A DNA stretch of 64,000 bases. Source: Sulfurovum sp. NBC37-1. GTDB lineage: Bacteria > Campylobacterota > Campylobacteria > Campylobacterales > Sulfurovaceae. The notes below the pieces were generated by a model. The model saw only the letters and a list, made by a program, of their open reading frames with translations. It was not told the DNA's origin and searched no databases. The position numbers and the translations under genes are program-made. The stretch's first letter is position 1. Each line of letters opens with the position of its first letter. Below, piece after piece: positions 5,638-54,165 of this stretch. Where the stretch lies: positions 434,001 to 498,000 of the forward strand of contig NC_009663.1 in assembly GCF_000010345.1 (NCBI RefSeq). The letters are read 5' to 3'.

Positions 5638-6468
5638 TTACTTGAGTGCTTCGAGTCTTTCTATTCTCGCTTCGGTACTCGGGTGAGTGGAGAAAAGCTG
5701 TTTGAGTGATACATCTTTACCGCTAAAAGGATTGATAATGAACATATGCGCTGTCTGTGGATCGGCTTCTGGCAGAGTGATGCTTCTTGCATAGTTGTCC
5801 AGCTTGGTCAGAGCGCTCTGCAGCCATTCAGGGTGTCCCGTCATTCTGGCGGAACCTTCATCCGCCATGAATTCACGGTTACGGCTCACCGTCATCTGAA
5901 TGATGGATGCAGCCATCGGCATGATGAACATGAGTGCCAGCATGACAAAGATGTTCGGTCTGTCTCTGTCACCACTGCCGAAGAACATACCGAAGTTCGC
6001 CAGCATGGCAATAGCTCCGGCTATGGTCGCGGCCACGGTTCCTATGAGCATATCGTAGTGCTTGATATGGCTGAGTTCATGGGCGATGACCGCTTCTATT
6101 TCTTCATCGGTCATCAGGTCCAGCAGGCCTTCGGTCACGGCCACGGCAGCATGTTCATAGTTCCTTCCTGTAGCAAAGGCATTGGGCTGCTGCTCGGGAA
6201 TGATGTAGAGTGCGGGCATCGGCAGACCAGCTCTTCGTGTCAGTTTTTCAACGATCTGGTAAAGTCCGCTGGCATGCGCTCTGTCCACTGGCTCGGCATG
6301 GTAGTGGCTCAGCACCTGCTGATCGCTGTAATAATAGGCATAGAAATTCATTCCCGCGGCTACAAGAAAGGCGATGACCATCCCCGTCTGCCCGGCGATC
6401 ATCCCGCCAAACCAGATAAAAAGCAGGGTAAGCCCGGTCATCAGGGCATAGGTTTTGAATTGTTCCAT
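5638..6468 (-). CDS. htpX: Membrane zinc metalloprotease HtpX (M48)
   Basis: 276 residues. Two hydrophobic segments at about residues 8-45 precede the zinc-binding HELSH at 130-134. A third ligand region [11 protein letters not shown] follows near residue 200, and a second pair of membrane segments lies between them (about 145-190). HtpX degrades misfolded or damaged membrane proteins and works alongside FtsH. The length (about 280-290 in the family) and all catalytic motifs look complete. It stands alone, with about 90 bases to mqo on one side and 75 bases to the DUF1566 gene on the other. Confidence 0.93.
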
Positions 6469-6542
6469 AATGGTTTATCCTTTTTTTAATGTATATCTTA
6501 GTTCAAGAGTGTAAATAGAAGGTAAATATTTTTTCGGGGTAG

Positions 6543-6950
6543 TCATTGTATGTCTCGTACACAGCGGATATGGCGTTCATAGCTCTTGTAATTACTATAT
6601 TCGTAGCCCCGTTTAAAATTCATCATCCAGGCGAACTCTTCATTTGATTCATTTTCGGAAGAGGACCAGTAGTATCCGGAGCCACCCATATAGTTAAAGC
6701 CTTTTTTCATACCTCCGTCGCGTGGTTCTGTACTGAGTATATGTTTGAGTTCTTTAATGCTTGGAAGCCTCCAGTCATTGTGCCCGGCCAATCGTAACTG
6801 GCGGCAATATAACATGGCCCCATTCCAATCTTTTTGTATATATTTCGCGTCACTGTTGTCTTGCCACATAAGCCCCGTTTTACTATCAACAAAGACATCG
6901 GATGCCAAAGACAGGCTACCGGCTATAAACATCAAAAAGAGTATTCTCAT
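6543..6950 (-). CDS. Exported DUF1566 (Lcl-type) domain protein
   Basis: 135 residues. A signal peptide of about 17 residues (MRILFLMFIAGSLSLASD) is followed by one DUF1566/Lcl C-terminal domain, recognised by DSKTGLMWQDNS, AMLYCRQLRLAGHNDWRLPS and YYWSSSENE. The fold is related to C-type lectin and FGE-sulfatase-like domains. The function is unknown; such proteins are secreted or periplasmic and often occur as lineage-specific duplicates. It sits at the edge of an inserted region, next to an inverted-repeat element at 7061-7234. Confidence 0.8.
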   Translation of the reverse strand: MRILFLMFIAGSLSLASDVFVDSKTGLMWQDNSDAKYIQKDWNGAMLYCRQLRLAGHNDWRLPSIKELKHILSTEPRDGGMKKGFNYMGGSGYYWSSSENESNEEFAWMMNFKRGYEYSNYKSYERHIRCVRDIQ

Positions 6951-7060
6951 CTGTTTCTCCTGTTATTTTGTGTTTCCAAGTATACCAAAGTTGGAGACTC
7001 TTTTTGTATTTTATTGTTTTTGGTTGATTTTTCACAGGGGTCAGAAAACTATGTTACACT

Positions 7061-7234
7061 TTGAACCCGGATTATGCATTGGAGATTACAGAACGCTACG
7101 CAAACCATTGCACCGTGGGCACTTACGGAGAAACCATCGATGCACCTACGGGTGCACCTCAAGTTTTCCACAAATACTCACAGAGCAAGCGTTTGGCAGA
7201 TTTCAAGTAATTCTAATGCATAATCCGGGTTGAA
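7061..7234. repeat. 174-bp element with 20-bp inverted terminal repeats
   Basis: The end at 7061-7080 and the end at 7215-7234 are inverted copies that match at 19 of 20 positions; the first 17 inner bases match exactly. Between them lies the 3' end of a protein-coding frame. No clear target duplication is visible outside the ends. The size and structure resemble a non-autonomous miniature element or the collapsed ends of an insertion sequence. The origin is inferred. Confidence 0.6.
7064..7210 (+). pseudogene. 3' remnant of an unidentified gene
   Basis: A frame open from 7028 and ending in TAA at 7208-7210 reads like true protein from NPDYALEITERYANHC onward, through APQVFHKYSQSKRL to the stop, but has no start codon. 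I do not recognise the family. It lies wholly within the 7061-7234 element, apart from the few codons before the left repeat. That suggests the 3' end of a gene left behind by a deletion, or captured between the repeats. Coding origin is inferred from residue composition only. Confidence 0.4.
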
Positions 7235-7253
7235 AATGAAACAGGATTTTAGA

Positions 7254-7892
7254 ATGAAACATATTGTACTTGTTGTTGGACTTTTTTTTGGCAGTTCTGC
7301 CACTGCCGATTATCGGGCCCGTATCTCGAAGATCACCCCGCAGATCAAAGAACGGATGATTAAAGGAAACTCCTGGCGACAAGGTTGTCCCGTGTCCCTG
7401 AATGATCTTCGGTATCTTCGGATGACCTATCGGGATTTCAGCGGCAAAGACAGGCAGGGGGAGATGGTTGTAAACAGAACGGTCGCTACCGAAGTGACGC
7501 GGATATTCAGAGAACTGTATGAAGCGGACTACCCCATAAGAAAGATGAAGCTGGTGAGCGACTACAAAGGAAGTGATTGGCAGTCCATTGAAGCGGACAA
7601 TACTTCAGCCTTCAACTGCCGTAAAGCGACAGGTTCCAAAAACTGGTCCAGACATTCCTACGGCAAGGCGATCGATCTCAACTCCATAGAGAACCCGTAT
7701 ATCTCGCACTCGGGGCGCATTGCACATAAAGAATCACTTCAGTACAGAAAACGTGTCCACAAAAAGAGTACTCCGGCTGACAGAGCTGTATTACTTAGAA
7801 ATGACAGGGCTGTGAAGATCTTTAAAAAGTATGGCTGGAAGTGGGGCGGCGACTGGTCCGGAGTGAAAGATTACCAGCACTTTTCAAAATAA
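7254..7892 (+). CDS. Exported M15-family D,D- or L,D-peptidase
   Basis: The frame opens at a TTG at 7230, but the ATG at 7254 is preferred: CAGGA lies about 8 bases upstream, and the product then begins with a clean signal peptide, MKHIVLVVGLFFGSSATA. The mature part carries the M15 VanY-like zinc and catalytic pattern: SRHSYGKAIDLN near residues 135-146 and WSGVKDYQHF at the C-terminus. It probably trims stem peptides of peptidoglycan in the periplasm. Starting at 7254 places the whole gene just outside the inverted-repeat element, which then lies directly in its 5' region. A pyruvate kinase gene follows 15 bases downstream and may share its transcript. Confidence 0.75.
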   Translation: MKHIVLVVGLFFGSSATADYRARISKITPQIKERMIKGNSWRQGCPVSLNDLRYLRMTYRDFSGKDRQGEMVVNRTVATEVTRIFRELYEADYPIRKMKLVSDYKGSDWQSIEADNTSAFNCRKATGSKNWSRHSYGKAIDLNSIENPYISHSGRIAHKESLQYRKRVHKKSTPADRAVLLRNDRAVKIFKKYGWKWGGDWSGVKDYQHFSK

Positions 7893-48772: not shown

Positions 48773-49082
48773 CGATATCCATTACTTTTTTGTCATTGTA
48801 GCGTATATTTTATAGCAGATACTGACATGTCATGAAGAGCTCGCTATGGGTAGTGCTCCTTTGGTACTTTTCCTTATAAAACATGCCAATATAGTACATT
48901 TTATAACGTTTTCTATGGGAGGGTAAATATTTATGGGCTACAAACGTCGTTATAGCGAATAACCTTATAAAATATGTTAGATTATAAGGTTTTGAATTAT
49001 CGAATATATCTCATCTCTATTTAGTTCAAAATTTAATAAGAAAAGGTGTATAGTATTCCTTACAATAAAAGGATAAAAAGAA
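48773..49082. other. Intergenic stretch left of the cassette-like array
   Basis: AT-rich, no gene. It holds a weak palindrome (CCTTATAAAA at 48872-48881 against TTTTATAACG at 48899-48908) and the perfect palindrome 48961-48991. Leader sequence with an AAAGGAT ribosome site precedes the ATG at 49083. Confidence 0.5.
48961..48991. repeat. AACCTTATAA palindrome, array unit 1
   Basis: AACCTTATAA at 48961-48970 is perfectly inverted at 48982-48991, with an 11-base centre. The right half, ATGTTAGATTATAAGGTTTT at 48974-48993, recurs exactly at 49865-49884. Confidence 0.8.
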
Positions 49083-49784
49083 ATGGGTAAACCTCAAAAA
49101 GATGCACTTGATAAAGCACGAGAAGCTTTTCGCTTAGGTAATTATGTAGATGCTCTTGAAAACTACGATTATTTCTTTGAACATGCTCTAGATGATGATC
49201 CTGCTTCTTCGTATGGAGTACGACTTTCATACTGTTTATCTGAGTGGGTAAAACTTGGAGAGAAATATCCGGAGGCTCTCATTAGACTAAAGTCAAAAAG
49301 GGATGAAGCTCTAGACTTGCTCTTAAAAACAAAAGAACCAGAACGATTTCATGATTATGTTGCTATTTGTGAATATTTAAAAAGTTCTGAGTTGCCAGTC
49401 AATGAATTTATCAAACTACATGATGAAGAGTCTACACTTTCTCAAGATATTGTTAGATTTATTTGGGATAAACTTATCAAAAAAGAAAAATGGAAAATTT
49501 GTAATGCATATCTACCTAATCCTGAAGAAAAATACAAGGAAGCACTTACAAGCTTTAATATTGCCATGAAATATTGCAAATCAAACCCCGAATATGATAT
49601 AGAAAGGCAGATGATAGGTAGTTATGTAATGGAAATATACAATATACTTTTAGTTTTAATGAAAAACAATCGGATAGATGCTGCCAAATCAGTACGCAAA
49701 CAAGTAATTGAAGACTTTAATTCAAGAGGCTACACCGGGCTTATGGAAAAAATTGATAAAGAAATTGGTCTTGAAGAAGCATAG
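49083..49784 (+). CDS. Hypothetical TPR-like protein in cassette-like region
   Basis: 233 residues, not recognised. The first 40 residues (AREAFRLGNYVDALENYDYFFEHAL) read like a tetratricopeptide unit, and KEALTSFNIAMKYCKSNPEY could be another, so an all-helical scaffold is likely. No signal peptide or membrane segment. The codon use is AT-rich compared with the flanking genes. AAAGGAT lies about 10 bases before the ATG. It is bounded on both sides by the AACCTTATAA palindromes, which suggests it moved as a unit. Confidence 0.6.
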   Translation: MGKPQKDALDKAREAFRLGNYVDALENYDYFFEHALDDDPASSYGVRLSYCLSEWVKLGEKYPEALIRLKSKRDEALDLLLKTKEPERFHDYVAICEYLKSSELPVNEFIKLHDEESTLSQDIVRFIWDKLIKKEKWKICNAYLPNPEEKYKEALTSFNIAMKYCKSNPEYDIERQMIGSYVMEIYNILLVLMKNNRIDAAKSVRKQVIEDFNSRGYTGLMEKIDKEIGLEEA

Positions 49785-49815
49785 ACTTTCGGGAACTAAA
49801 TATAACACATTGAAG

Positions 49816-49881
49816 ACCTTATAAAATATATAACTTTATGAGGATTTTTTGCCCGTTATATTCTATGTTAGATTATAAGGT
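49816..49881. repeat. AACCTTATAA palindrome, array unit 2 (with inner stem)
   Basis: ACCTTATAA at 49816-49824 is inverted at 49873-49881. Between them ATATAAC at 49828-49834 pairs with GTTATAT at 49855-49861, giving a nested stem. The right arm is part of the 20-base exact repeat of unit 1. This unit separates the TPR-like gene from the 72-residue gene. Confidence 0.7.
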
Positions 49882-49924
49882 TTTCATATTAAATATGTAT
49901 AATTATCTTAATAAAGGTATTAGT

Positions 49925-50143
49925 ATGAATAAATTTGAGTTGGCTGATAAACTATATAAAGTCGGTTATGAACATAAAGATGTTAAATCTATATGGGCAT
50001 ATGCTTGGGATGAACAGCATATAGGTCAATCAGGTAAAAAAAGAAAACCTTGGCAATTAAAAGCACTTGAAGAAGTCTCAGTGAAAATTGAAGATATTGA
50101 ATTTGACAGTAATGATACTTCTCATTTGTTTAGAGTTCTTTAG
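49925..50143 (+). CDS. Small hypothetical protein in cassette-like region
   Basis: 72 residues from the ATG at 49925 (MNKFELADKLYKVGYEHKDV), which has AAAGG 8 bases upstream. The frame is open to 49838, but the earlier part runs through palindrome unit 2 and is hydrophobic without supporting signals. The product is soluble and mixed helical (WAYAWDEQHIGQSGKKRKPW); I do not recognise it. It is very AT-rich compared with the neighbouring core genes. Confidence 0.5.
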   Translation: MNKFELADKLYKVGYEHKDVKSIWAYAWDEQHIGQSGKKRKPWQLKALEEVSVKIEDIEFDSNDTSHLFRVL

Positions 50144-50167
50144 ATGGTTGAGCTAAGTATGGAATAA

Positions 50168-50476
50168 ATGAAAATATTACTTTCAAGCATTATCATTGTT
50201 TTTATCTTAACGTATGGAGTGGTATGGTTTGATACACAACAAGATAGAGAAAACATATTAAGAGTCAAAAAAGATTCTATAGCTTTTGAAGATTGGAAAT
50301 GTGGATATCTATGTAATACACCAATATTCAAAGTTTATGACGGTGAAAAATACAATGTATTACGCATTAGATATGGTAAAGGTTTCATGGCATTTAAAAT
50401 TAAATCAAAAAACGGATTAACTGGTTGGACTATATTGGATGGACAATATGAAATTACTAAGTTAGAGCATAATTAA
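50168..50476 (+). CDS. Small membrane-anchored hypothetical protein
   Basis: 102 residues. One N-terminal hydrophobic segment (MKILLSSIIIVFILTYGVVWF) anchors or exports a domain of about 80 residues with two cysteines (WKCGYLCNTP). No family is recognised. It follows the 72-residue gene by 24 bases and ends 22 bases before palindrome unit 3, so the two small genes may form one cassette-like unit. Confidence 0.5.
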   Translation: MKILLSSIIIVFILTYGVVWFDTQQDRENILRVKKDSIAFEDWKCGYLCNTPIFKVYDGEKYNVLRIRYGKGFMAFKIKSKNGLTGWTILDGQYEITKLEHN

Positions 50477-50498
50477 CAATTGAAAGAGACAAATTTTC

Positions 50499-50533
50499 AA
50501 AACCTTATAAAATACATAAATTTATAAGGTTTT
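50499..50533. repeat. AACCTTATAA palindrome, array unit 3
   Basis: A perfect 13-bp inverted repeat: AAAACCTTATAAA at 50499-50511 and TTTATAAGGTTTT at 50521-50533, with a 9-base centre. It closes the array on the right; the conserved DUF1882-like gene ends 39 bases further on. Confidence 0.8.
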
Positions 50534-50571
50534 GGAGCAAGAATGTTTTTGGATAATATGAGAGCGTTAAC

Positions 50572-52493: not shown

Positions 52494-54165
52494 ATTATCC
52501 CAAATCCGTAAATAGAAAATAACCATAAAAGAAGAAGTATCGTAAAATAGGGGAAAAGAAAGACAAAAGCGACACTAAACACTTTCACCCATTTGGTGAA
52601 GCTTTTGCCAAGGAGTAAAAGTATGCCACAAGGTGTGTTAAATTTTTCTGTAGAGGGAACTAAAGAGTCACTTACTTCCAATGCCGGAACCATATTATTC
52701 GGTGAATATCTAAAAGCAACTAAAATCGATCAATTCTGTAATGCCTATCTACCTTTACCTCAAAGTAATCGAGGTTATATGCCATTTGAACACATGCAAC
52801 CATTACTTCTTATGCTTCATAGCGGAGGAAGGGTCCTGGATGACTTACGTATGATTCATAAAGATAAAGCCATCAAAGAGACGTTGAAGATTAAACATAT
52901 ACCTGTATCAGAGAGTGTAGGAAAATGGATCACACGTCACGGACTACATGGTATCTATGGTATTGAATCCATCAATCGTAAACTGTTGCGAAGACATTTA
53001 AAAACGATAGATGAGCCTTTAGTACTTGATATTGATGCTTCGGTAATATTTTCACAAAAAAGTACAGCAGTGACAACTTATAAAATGCAAAGCGGATATA
53101 TACCTATGATTGGTCATATCAATGGCGGATATGTGATTCACAGTGAATTTCGTTCAGGCAATATTGCGCCCGCAGATAATAATCTGACGTTTCTAAAAAG
53201 ATGTCGGGAACAATTACCCAAAGCAAAATCACTCTCTTTTTTTAGAGCAGATTCTGCTTCTTATCAGGCTGAACTTTTTAACCACTGCAATAATCATCAT
53301 ATCACCTATACCGTGGGCGCTAACTTAGATCATTCCGTCTACGCCAATATCAAAGAAATTAAAGAGTGGCAATCATTCCAAACCAAAGAAGGTACAGCAC
53401 ATCACCTTAAAGAAGAAGTAGCTGAGTTTATACATACCATGCAGCACACAGACCATGCCTTTAGACTGATTGTTGTCAAAAAGACAGTGACACCGGTACT
53501 TCCGGAGATCTGGGATATGTTGAGTATAGACGAAAAACTTGATCTTGCCAGAGAGCATTATTATGTCATCGCTACCAATGCAGATGAAAGCATGTCTGCT
53601 CAGGATGTTGTTAGGTTTTATCGCAAGCGTGGAGATACAAGCGAGAACCGGATCAAAGAACTTAAAAATGGTTTCAATCTCAATTATCTTCCTTCATCAA
53701 ATTTTATCTCCAATGCATTTTTACTTTCAGATAGGTGTACTGGCTTATAATCTCTTCATTCTTTTTAAACAAATACTGCAAAATAGCTGGCAAAAACATA
53801 CGGTTGCCACGATACGCTATAAGTTTTATCGTTTAGCAGGAAAGGTAGTGAAACACAGTAGGCAGACTATCTTGAAAGTTCAAAAAGAGTTTGTAGAAAT
53901 ATTTCACTCCATAAGAGAATGCATCTATAGGGTTTCACTGGAATGATACCCGTATAAAGTCACCAAAAACATCAATACGATAGAAACTTCAAACACTAGA
54001 ATAGTGCCTAAAAAAACAGCATTTTTAGCATAAACATGTCGGTGTGCTAAAAACAACAAGGTAATACGCAAATTTATGATGCATCTAATCTTTTAGCATA
54101 ATATCTCTCGTTGATTTTAGTTCAATTTATGATTACTTTGGGGCTATTTACGGATTTGGGATTAT
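52494..54165 (+). mobile_element. IS1380-like insertion sequence with frameshifted transposase
   Basis: About 1.67 kb. The ends at 52494-52515 and 54144-54165 are inverted copies matching at 21 of 22 positions (core CCCAAATCCGTAAATAG). One transposase gene lies inside, broken by a one-base shift. The right end overlaps the first two bases of the start codon of the following antiporter gene. I found no convincing target duplication. The 53947-54143 stretch inside the right end holds no gene; TATGAT near 54129 could act as an outward -10 box. Confidence 0.75.
52623..53946 (+). pseudogene. IS1380-family-like transposase, frameshifted
   Basis: The first frame (52623-53750) starts at an ATG with AAGGAG upstream and gives 375 residues. 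The DDE-type acidic residues are D136 and D138 (VLDIDAS), D210 (FFRADSASYQ) and a glutamate in SENRIKELKNGF. At the T5 run 53718-53722 the frame is lost. Continuing in another frame gives YFQIGVLAYNLFILFKQ, the expected conserved next segment, and then a tail to 53946. One T too many explains the break. It is either inactivated, a sequencing error, or expressed by slippage on the T run. Confidence 0.8.

Follow-up and report, generated by a model that had tools for sequence, protein, structure and literature searches.

A probable gene-cassette array in Sulfurovum sp. NBC37-1, bracketed by palindromes and linked to a small tyrosine recombinase

Between an RND gene and a DUF gene of the deep-sea bacterium Sulfurovum sp. 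NBC37-1 lies a block of small genes punctuated by palindromes, which raises the question of what these palindromes are and how the genes between them came to be there. The block was analyzed within a 64,000-nucleotide stretch (the window), positions 434001-498000 of the single-contig 2,562,277-bp chromosome, and the rest of the genome was examined through pattern searches and specified stretches. As set out below, this is probably an array of two cassettes belonging to a chromosomal cassette system, in which an element termed LE provides the docking site and a small tyrosine recombinase exchanges the cassettes.

Palindromes of the window and their relatives

A first-pass annotation of this DNA had pointed to a shared 20-mer and to inverted arms, and both are placed exactly as it described. 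The 20-mer ATGTTAGATTATAAGGTTTT occurs at 48974-48993 and at 49865-49884, a spacing of 891 bp, and the paired arms ACCTTATAA...TTATAAGGT occur at 48962-48990 and 50502-50530. Neither was seen in 100 dinucleotide shuffles (0 occurrences of each), and the 20-mer and the AACCTTATAA arms are not expected by chance. Across the whole genome the 20-mer was counted three times, and the inverted-arm pattern ACCTTATAA-n-TTATAAGGT was found at 9 places, compared with 0 in a reversed control. The block was also correctly described as AT-rich, with a GC content over 1,665 bp of 29.6% against 45.3% for the window, below all 312 windows of equal length.

The annotation had listed four palindromes as separators. 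They are not equivalent but are three parts of one dispersed element, namely LE, a composite internal site and RE: two palindromes, P1 and P2, form one end, the one at 49815-49884 is internal, and the one at 50499-50535 forms the other end. P1, which had been reported at 48872-48908 as a weak palindrome, is indeed degenerate, but it is real and more than a stray weak one, since the same 122-bp unit of P1, spacer and P2 recurs elsewhere at ~90% identity. The features are as follows.

48845-48871, minus strand: putative remnant, now decayed, of a recombinase gene start (first ~9 codons), reading AGGAAAAGTACCAAAGGAGCACTACCC; an inference for this single copy
48871-48993: LE (left end), the 122-bp unit made of P1, a conserved 50-bp spacer and P2
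48871-48910, plus strand: P1, outer palindrome of LE, defined by alignment of LE copies, with an inner TTCTATATAGGAGG motif
48911-48960, plus strand: LE spacer, with the core AAACGTCGTTATAGCGAATAAC at 48942-48963
48961-48993, plus strand: P2, inner palindrome of LE and proposed docking site; cassettes begin beside it
48994-49814, plus strand: cassette 1, with a gene at 49083-49784 (233 aa, weakly TPR-like)
49815-49884, plus strand: composite internal site, made of an RE-type palindrome, ~20 bp, and the right half of P2 (TATGTTAGATTATAAGGTTTT)
49885-50498, plus strand: cassette 2, with two small genes taken from the ORF list
49924-50143, plus strand: first gene of cassette 2, 72 aa if read from the likely ATG (the ORF as listed begins at 49838)
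50168-50476, plus strand: second gene of cassette 2, 102 aa
50499-50535, plus strand: RE, terminal palindrome and chromosome border, a single palindrome AAAACCTTATAAAATATATAATTTTATAAGGTTTT; RE and the chromosomal flank are alike in genome G002

The core of the 50-bp spacer is also given as AAACGTCGYTAYAGCGAATAAC. RE folds with a z of -7.2. The description of the cassette 1 gene as TPR-like is only weakly supported, every Pfam match being under its curated cut-off, and for the two genes of cassette 2 neither Pfam nor PADLOC gave a confident family. A transposase-like ORF (385 aa, identified by eye) lies ~2 kb from the element, at window positions 52593-53750, and no link to the palindromes was seen.

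Within this genome the LE core is found in five LEs and at no other place; the elements are A (231099-232246), B (the one in the window), C, E and F, and some ends occur in isolation. The core also occurs in LEs of relatives, and its only exact match among other genome contigs is in the Sulfurovum MAG NORP77. A scan of viral contigs for the core gave no match. A search with the 122-bp LE at E 0.01 matched 38 of 78 genus genomes, and a stricter search for the LE family at E 1e-15 retained 27 of the 78 plus one genome of another genus; five genomes (G027, G028, G035, G075 and G076) hold ~15 LE matches each, partial matches counted. Downstream of LE there is at least one palindromic border in 38 of 57 copies, with up to six in a row at locus L058; several of the remaining copies are cut by contig ends. 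Arrays thus delimited hold 1-6 cassettes with borders mostly 0.4-4 kb apart and genes in both orientations. At L018 a half RE (AACCTTATAAAATA, 6249-6262) is cut off beside an apparent insertion sequence with transposase-like ORFs (6460-7821), which perhaps inserted into a palindrome.

Exchange of cargo at the borders

The core proposal of the first-pass annotation, a unit-wise capture system or a dispersed element that brackets cargo, is supported by the very checks that it had suggested: further copies of the repeat exist in the same genome, and 27 of the 78 genus genomes have it; from one species to another the genes flanked at the same borders differ; one relative lacks the bracketed block altogether; and an integrase-type gene lies beside the repeat in other genomes. 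At the B locus, G002 shares LE and RE with the window and has flanks of 82-93% identity, but the cargo enclosed is entirely different, namely genes for an AAA ATPase (501 aa, similar to PADLOC NsnB) and a 291-aa protein, together with a transposase-like ORF. In G023 the block is missing, and only 12 bp separate the RND gene from the DUF gene. Locus A, where LE follows a formate-dehydrogenase-like gene, is common to G000, G002, G023, G074, G035, G027 and G017, and these seven genomes carry seven different cargoes with no cassette in common. The cargo of G002 at this locus includes a SIR2-domain protein with a ThsA-like N terminus, and the swapped cassettes are likely to include phage-defence genes.

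Single cassettes also recur in new company. A ~407-bp cassette is found at eight loci with differing neighbours, and at its 3' end the copies cease to match at the palindrome centre, the right arm varying with the neighbour. The third cassette of L079 and the first of L117 are 96% identical at different sites, and the first two cassettes of L072 match the second and third of L074 at 91-94% identity. Between L058 (in G075) and L065 (in G076) the flanks are 99.7-99.8% identical, all cassettes are different, and a recombinase-bearing segment is inverted with the sequence switching inside a palindrome; this exchange is apparently recent. The comparisons at the B locus, at locus A, of the recurring cassettes and of L058 with L065 together show, at the level of sequence, that modules are exchanged and that the borders are respected in the process. 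Many cassettes, among them some at L058, L072 and L079, have TATCNAAAATGTCTTGTTNTC immediately within their right border; it looks like a conserved promoter of genes oriented towards LE, and cassettes thus seem to carry their own promoters.

Two types of border separate the cassettes. Most are simple palindromes of ~31 bp without GTTRRRY, and eleven are homologous composite sites (90% mean column identity) with a 64-bp core, in which GTTAGAT fits GTTRRRY and ATATAAC has one mismatch to RYYYAAC. For the motif in the window the first-pass annotation had found no matching partner site; such sites do exist. No inner-stem covariation above controls was detected in the composite sites, leaving a functional inner stem unsupported. 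A new cassette would enter at P2 and leave the right half of P2 in front of the previously first cassette, following an integron-like logic with a crossover near TATG/TTAGA, and a second point of exchange may lie in the AATATATAA centre, as the simple borders indicate. Entry at P2 fits the near-invariance of P2 among the 57 LE copies, whichever cassette comes next, and the composite borders between some cassettes. The polarity, with new cassettes entering next to LE, is inferred from the 11 composite sites.

A small tyrosine recombinase beside LE

At three loci (L058, L065 and L071) a small tyrosine recombinase gene abuts LE on the P1 side and runs away from it, with its ribosome-binding site, TATAGGAGG in P1 of other LE copies, lying within P1. 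The listed ORF is 196 aa long; the likely start (MKTIKES) gives 188 aa comprising the catalytic domain only, and at L058 the likely start codon reads ATT. The protein matches PF00589 with 57 bits, over the cut-off, and no NCBIfam subfamily over its cut-off. All six catalytic residues (R, K, H, R, H, Y) are kept in eleven homologues. The predicted structure has a pLDDT of 89.8 with XerA closest in a PDB comparison, and on this model the tyrosine-recombinase fold is assigned with confidence. The intact gene is known from these three copies in two genomes, G075 and G076, and is missing from NBC37-1 and from most LE-bearing genomes.

Traces of the gene are more widespread. Over 57 LEs, three of which are the intact copies, the bases just outside P1 match the recombinase start at a mean of 13.9 of 27 positions, against 7.2 (sd 2.4) in control flanking DNA, and at least 17 of the 27 are kept in 15 of the 57, against 0.018% in controls. 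Next to the LE of the window, 16 of 27 bases match the recombinase 5' end of L065, and longer relics remain at L062 (22 residues) and L107 (36 residues). These decayed first codons outside P1 at many LEs argue that LE is in origin the 5' region of the recombinase gene itself.

In other families of the order, homologues with 38-51% identity mostly stand directly behind palindromes with similar arms, which are of the AACCTTATAA type (twice) in G413 and variants in G463, four related genomes and G253; in G398 there is none, and one homologue, at L139, has no clear palindrome upstream. At L105 (contig C45 of G005) a 44% identical recombinase follows a palindrome-like stretch, AACCTTATAATCT; the contig is probably a plasmid, as it also has genes that look, by eye, ParA-, ParB- and Rep-like. 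Two Arcobacter plasmids carry a homologue (43%), and there were no plasmid matches outside Arcobacter. A viral origin was rejected, the single viral-contig match being distant (27%). We infer, without binding data, that this recombinase family binds at AACCTTATAA-type arms, and plasmids are a plausible, likewise inferred, source of the enzyme in trans.

In the mechanism that we propose, LE would serve as the docking end, and RE and the internal palindromes as cassette borders. The recombinase, encoded divergently from LE with its start beside P1, would bind the AACCTTATAA arms and exchange strands in the ~11-bp centre, so that, much as happens in integrons or dif modules, cassettes may be inserted, deleted, inverted and transferred from one docking site to another. 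Comparative genomics by itself establishes the sites, the swapping of cargo at borders, the same cassettes at different sites, the inverted recombinase segment and the derivation of many LEs from the recombinase start. That the small recombinase performs the exchange is inferred, there being no biochemical evidence, as is its action in trans or subsequent loss where no intact copy exists; in G027, G028, G035, G000 and G002 the exchange must be older, or be due to a transient source or to another enzyme. The palindrome centres, at 9-20 bp against the 6-8 bp usual for tyrosine recombinases, count against the proposal.

Alternative explanations and known systems

The palindromes might be ordinary bidirectional transcription terminators without any role in gene exchange, as the AAAA-stem-TTTT layout of the well-folding RE would allow. 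This can practically be discounted: the stems have only two G-C pairs, the 122-bp LE is conserved across species, and the same cassettes have switched neighbours while different cargo lies between the same ends, which contradicts the refuting outcome envisaged in the first-pass annotation, a terminator without cargo variation. A transposon whose ends are LE and RE, mobilized in trans by an unidentified transposase and with cargo replaced by homologous recombination, would account for the similar terminal palindromes of LE and RE, for LE-RE units at many loci and for isolated ends. We consider it highly improbable, as no transposase with such ends was found, and as both the exchange of individual internal cassettes and the switching of sequence within palindromes speak for site-specific recombination. 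There is no transposase within the LE-RE ends of the window, and no target duplication was recognised, the only block-free relative being diverged at the junction. A reading of LE as the start of an IS3-family transposase, based on a spacer that reads MTRKRRYSE-stop in some copies, was rejected; element C has lost the start codon and the reading is missing in NORP77.

Movement of cassettes by the host XerC/XerD at dif-like sites, like the dif modules of Acinetobacter, is also very unlikely, even though cargo is laid out between inverted palindromic sites and XerC/XerD, present in all genomes, would explain swapping without the small recombinase. In Acinetobacter, palindromic tyrosine-recombinase sites bracket units of varied adaptive cargo that are shuffled between loci (PMC6449649). 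The published dif of NBC37-1 is TTTTAATAGAATTTATATTATGTTAATC (PMC2731167), which lacks the AACCTTATAA arms, and host dif was rejected as the site on this difference. Nor are there 28-bp dif-like flanking sites, the centre being ~11 bp and not the 6 bp of the 11-6-11 layout, and a different recombinase is tied to LE; host XerCD as the enzyme is not excluded. The remaining alternative, lineage-specific classical attC/attI sites whose true IntI has since been lost from many genomes, is unlikely. It draws on the motifs of the composite sites, whose core falls in the size range of attC (a palindrome between RYYYAAC and GTTRRRY, 57-141 bp; PMC3053210), on IntI genes in 23 of 78 genus genomes and on elements C, E and F, whose attC-like sites abut the LE spacer at GTTATTC. 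Against it, IntI and LE coincide in 5 genomes where 8 are expected (Fisher p = 0.19, odds 0.42), the LE-richest genomes have no IntI, most borders lack GTTRRRY, the inner stem does not covary, and LE derives from the gene start of another recombinase. No IntI-type integrase (TIGR02249) over the cut-off was found in the NBC37-1 genome, the LE-linked recombinase scores 28 bits against that model (cut-off 265), and IntI was rejected as the enzyme for want of association with LE. The analogy with integrons drawn in the first-pass annotation holds for the layout and for GTTAGAT at P2 and at composite junctions, but not for a classical integron, since IntI does not track with LE and most borders have no attC-like site.

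C, E and F look like integrase-less classical integron arrays inside LE-RE brackets. Their cargo contains attC-like sites identified by eye (L014:2636-5230, L016:5260-7161 and L017:5566-7623), lying behind a shared ~240-bp leader that ends in GTTA beside RE; in E the last attC-like site joins the LE spacer at G|TTATTC.

The preferred reading, cassette exchange by the small recombinase at LE-led arrays, shares features with several known systems. Like an integron, the system has a docking site beside which a tyrosine recombinase is divergently encoded, arrays of small, mutually unrelated cassettes that survive loss of the recombinase, and GTTAGAT at some junctions; it differs in its 188-aa non-IntI recombinase, its mostly simple AT-rich palindromic borders, and the presence in each genome of many short arrays, whose genes lie in both orientations and apparently have their own promoters. 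An attC at each cassette is not seen, nor are one-orientation cassettes behind a common promoter (L058, for example, has both orientations), and LE, abutting the recombinase in three copies, is only an analogue of attI and does not resemble it in sequence. As in dif modules, bracketed units are shuffled between loci and a module recurs in different contexts with the same bordering sites, but the arms and centre differ, the docking end is associated with a recombinase family of its own, and the arrays are chromosomal and led by the 122-bp LE. With defining features of both systems failing, the array was assigned to neither. XerA and other Xer proteins, the closest structures, share the catalytic-domain fold and residues, but the small recombinase has no N-terminal core-binding domain and the sites differ. 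FimB/FimE-type small tyrosine recombinases, of ~200 aa, invert DNA between inverted sites; unlike theirs, the sites described here bracket many gene cassettes and not one promoter switch.

We found no published description of such a system, and nothing relevant on Sulfurovum integrons, recombinases or mobile elements, in the open-licence literature. We lean towards an independently evolved capture system of the Campylobacterota, parallel to integrons, in which a plasmid-related mini recombinase and its LE gave rise to dispersed docking stations whose arrays outlast decay of the recombinase. Among bacterial devices that gather single genes into arrays by means of a dedicated recombinase, integrons are the best known. 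If our reading is correct, this would be another of the kind, with a far smaller recombinase and less complex sites, and gene-cassette capture would have evolved more than once. It would offer a compact recombinase-site pair and account for the variable loci of Sulfurovum, where likely defence genes and many uncharacterised small genes are found.
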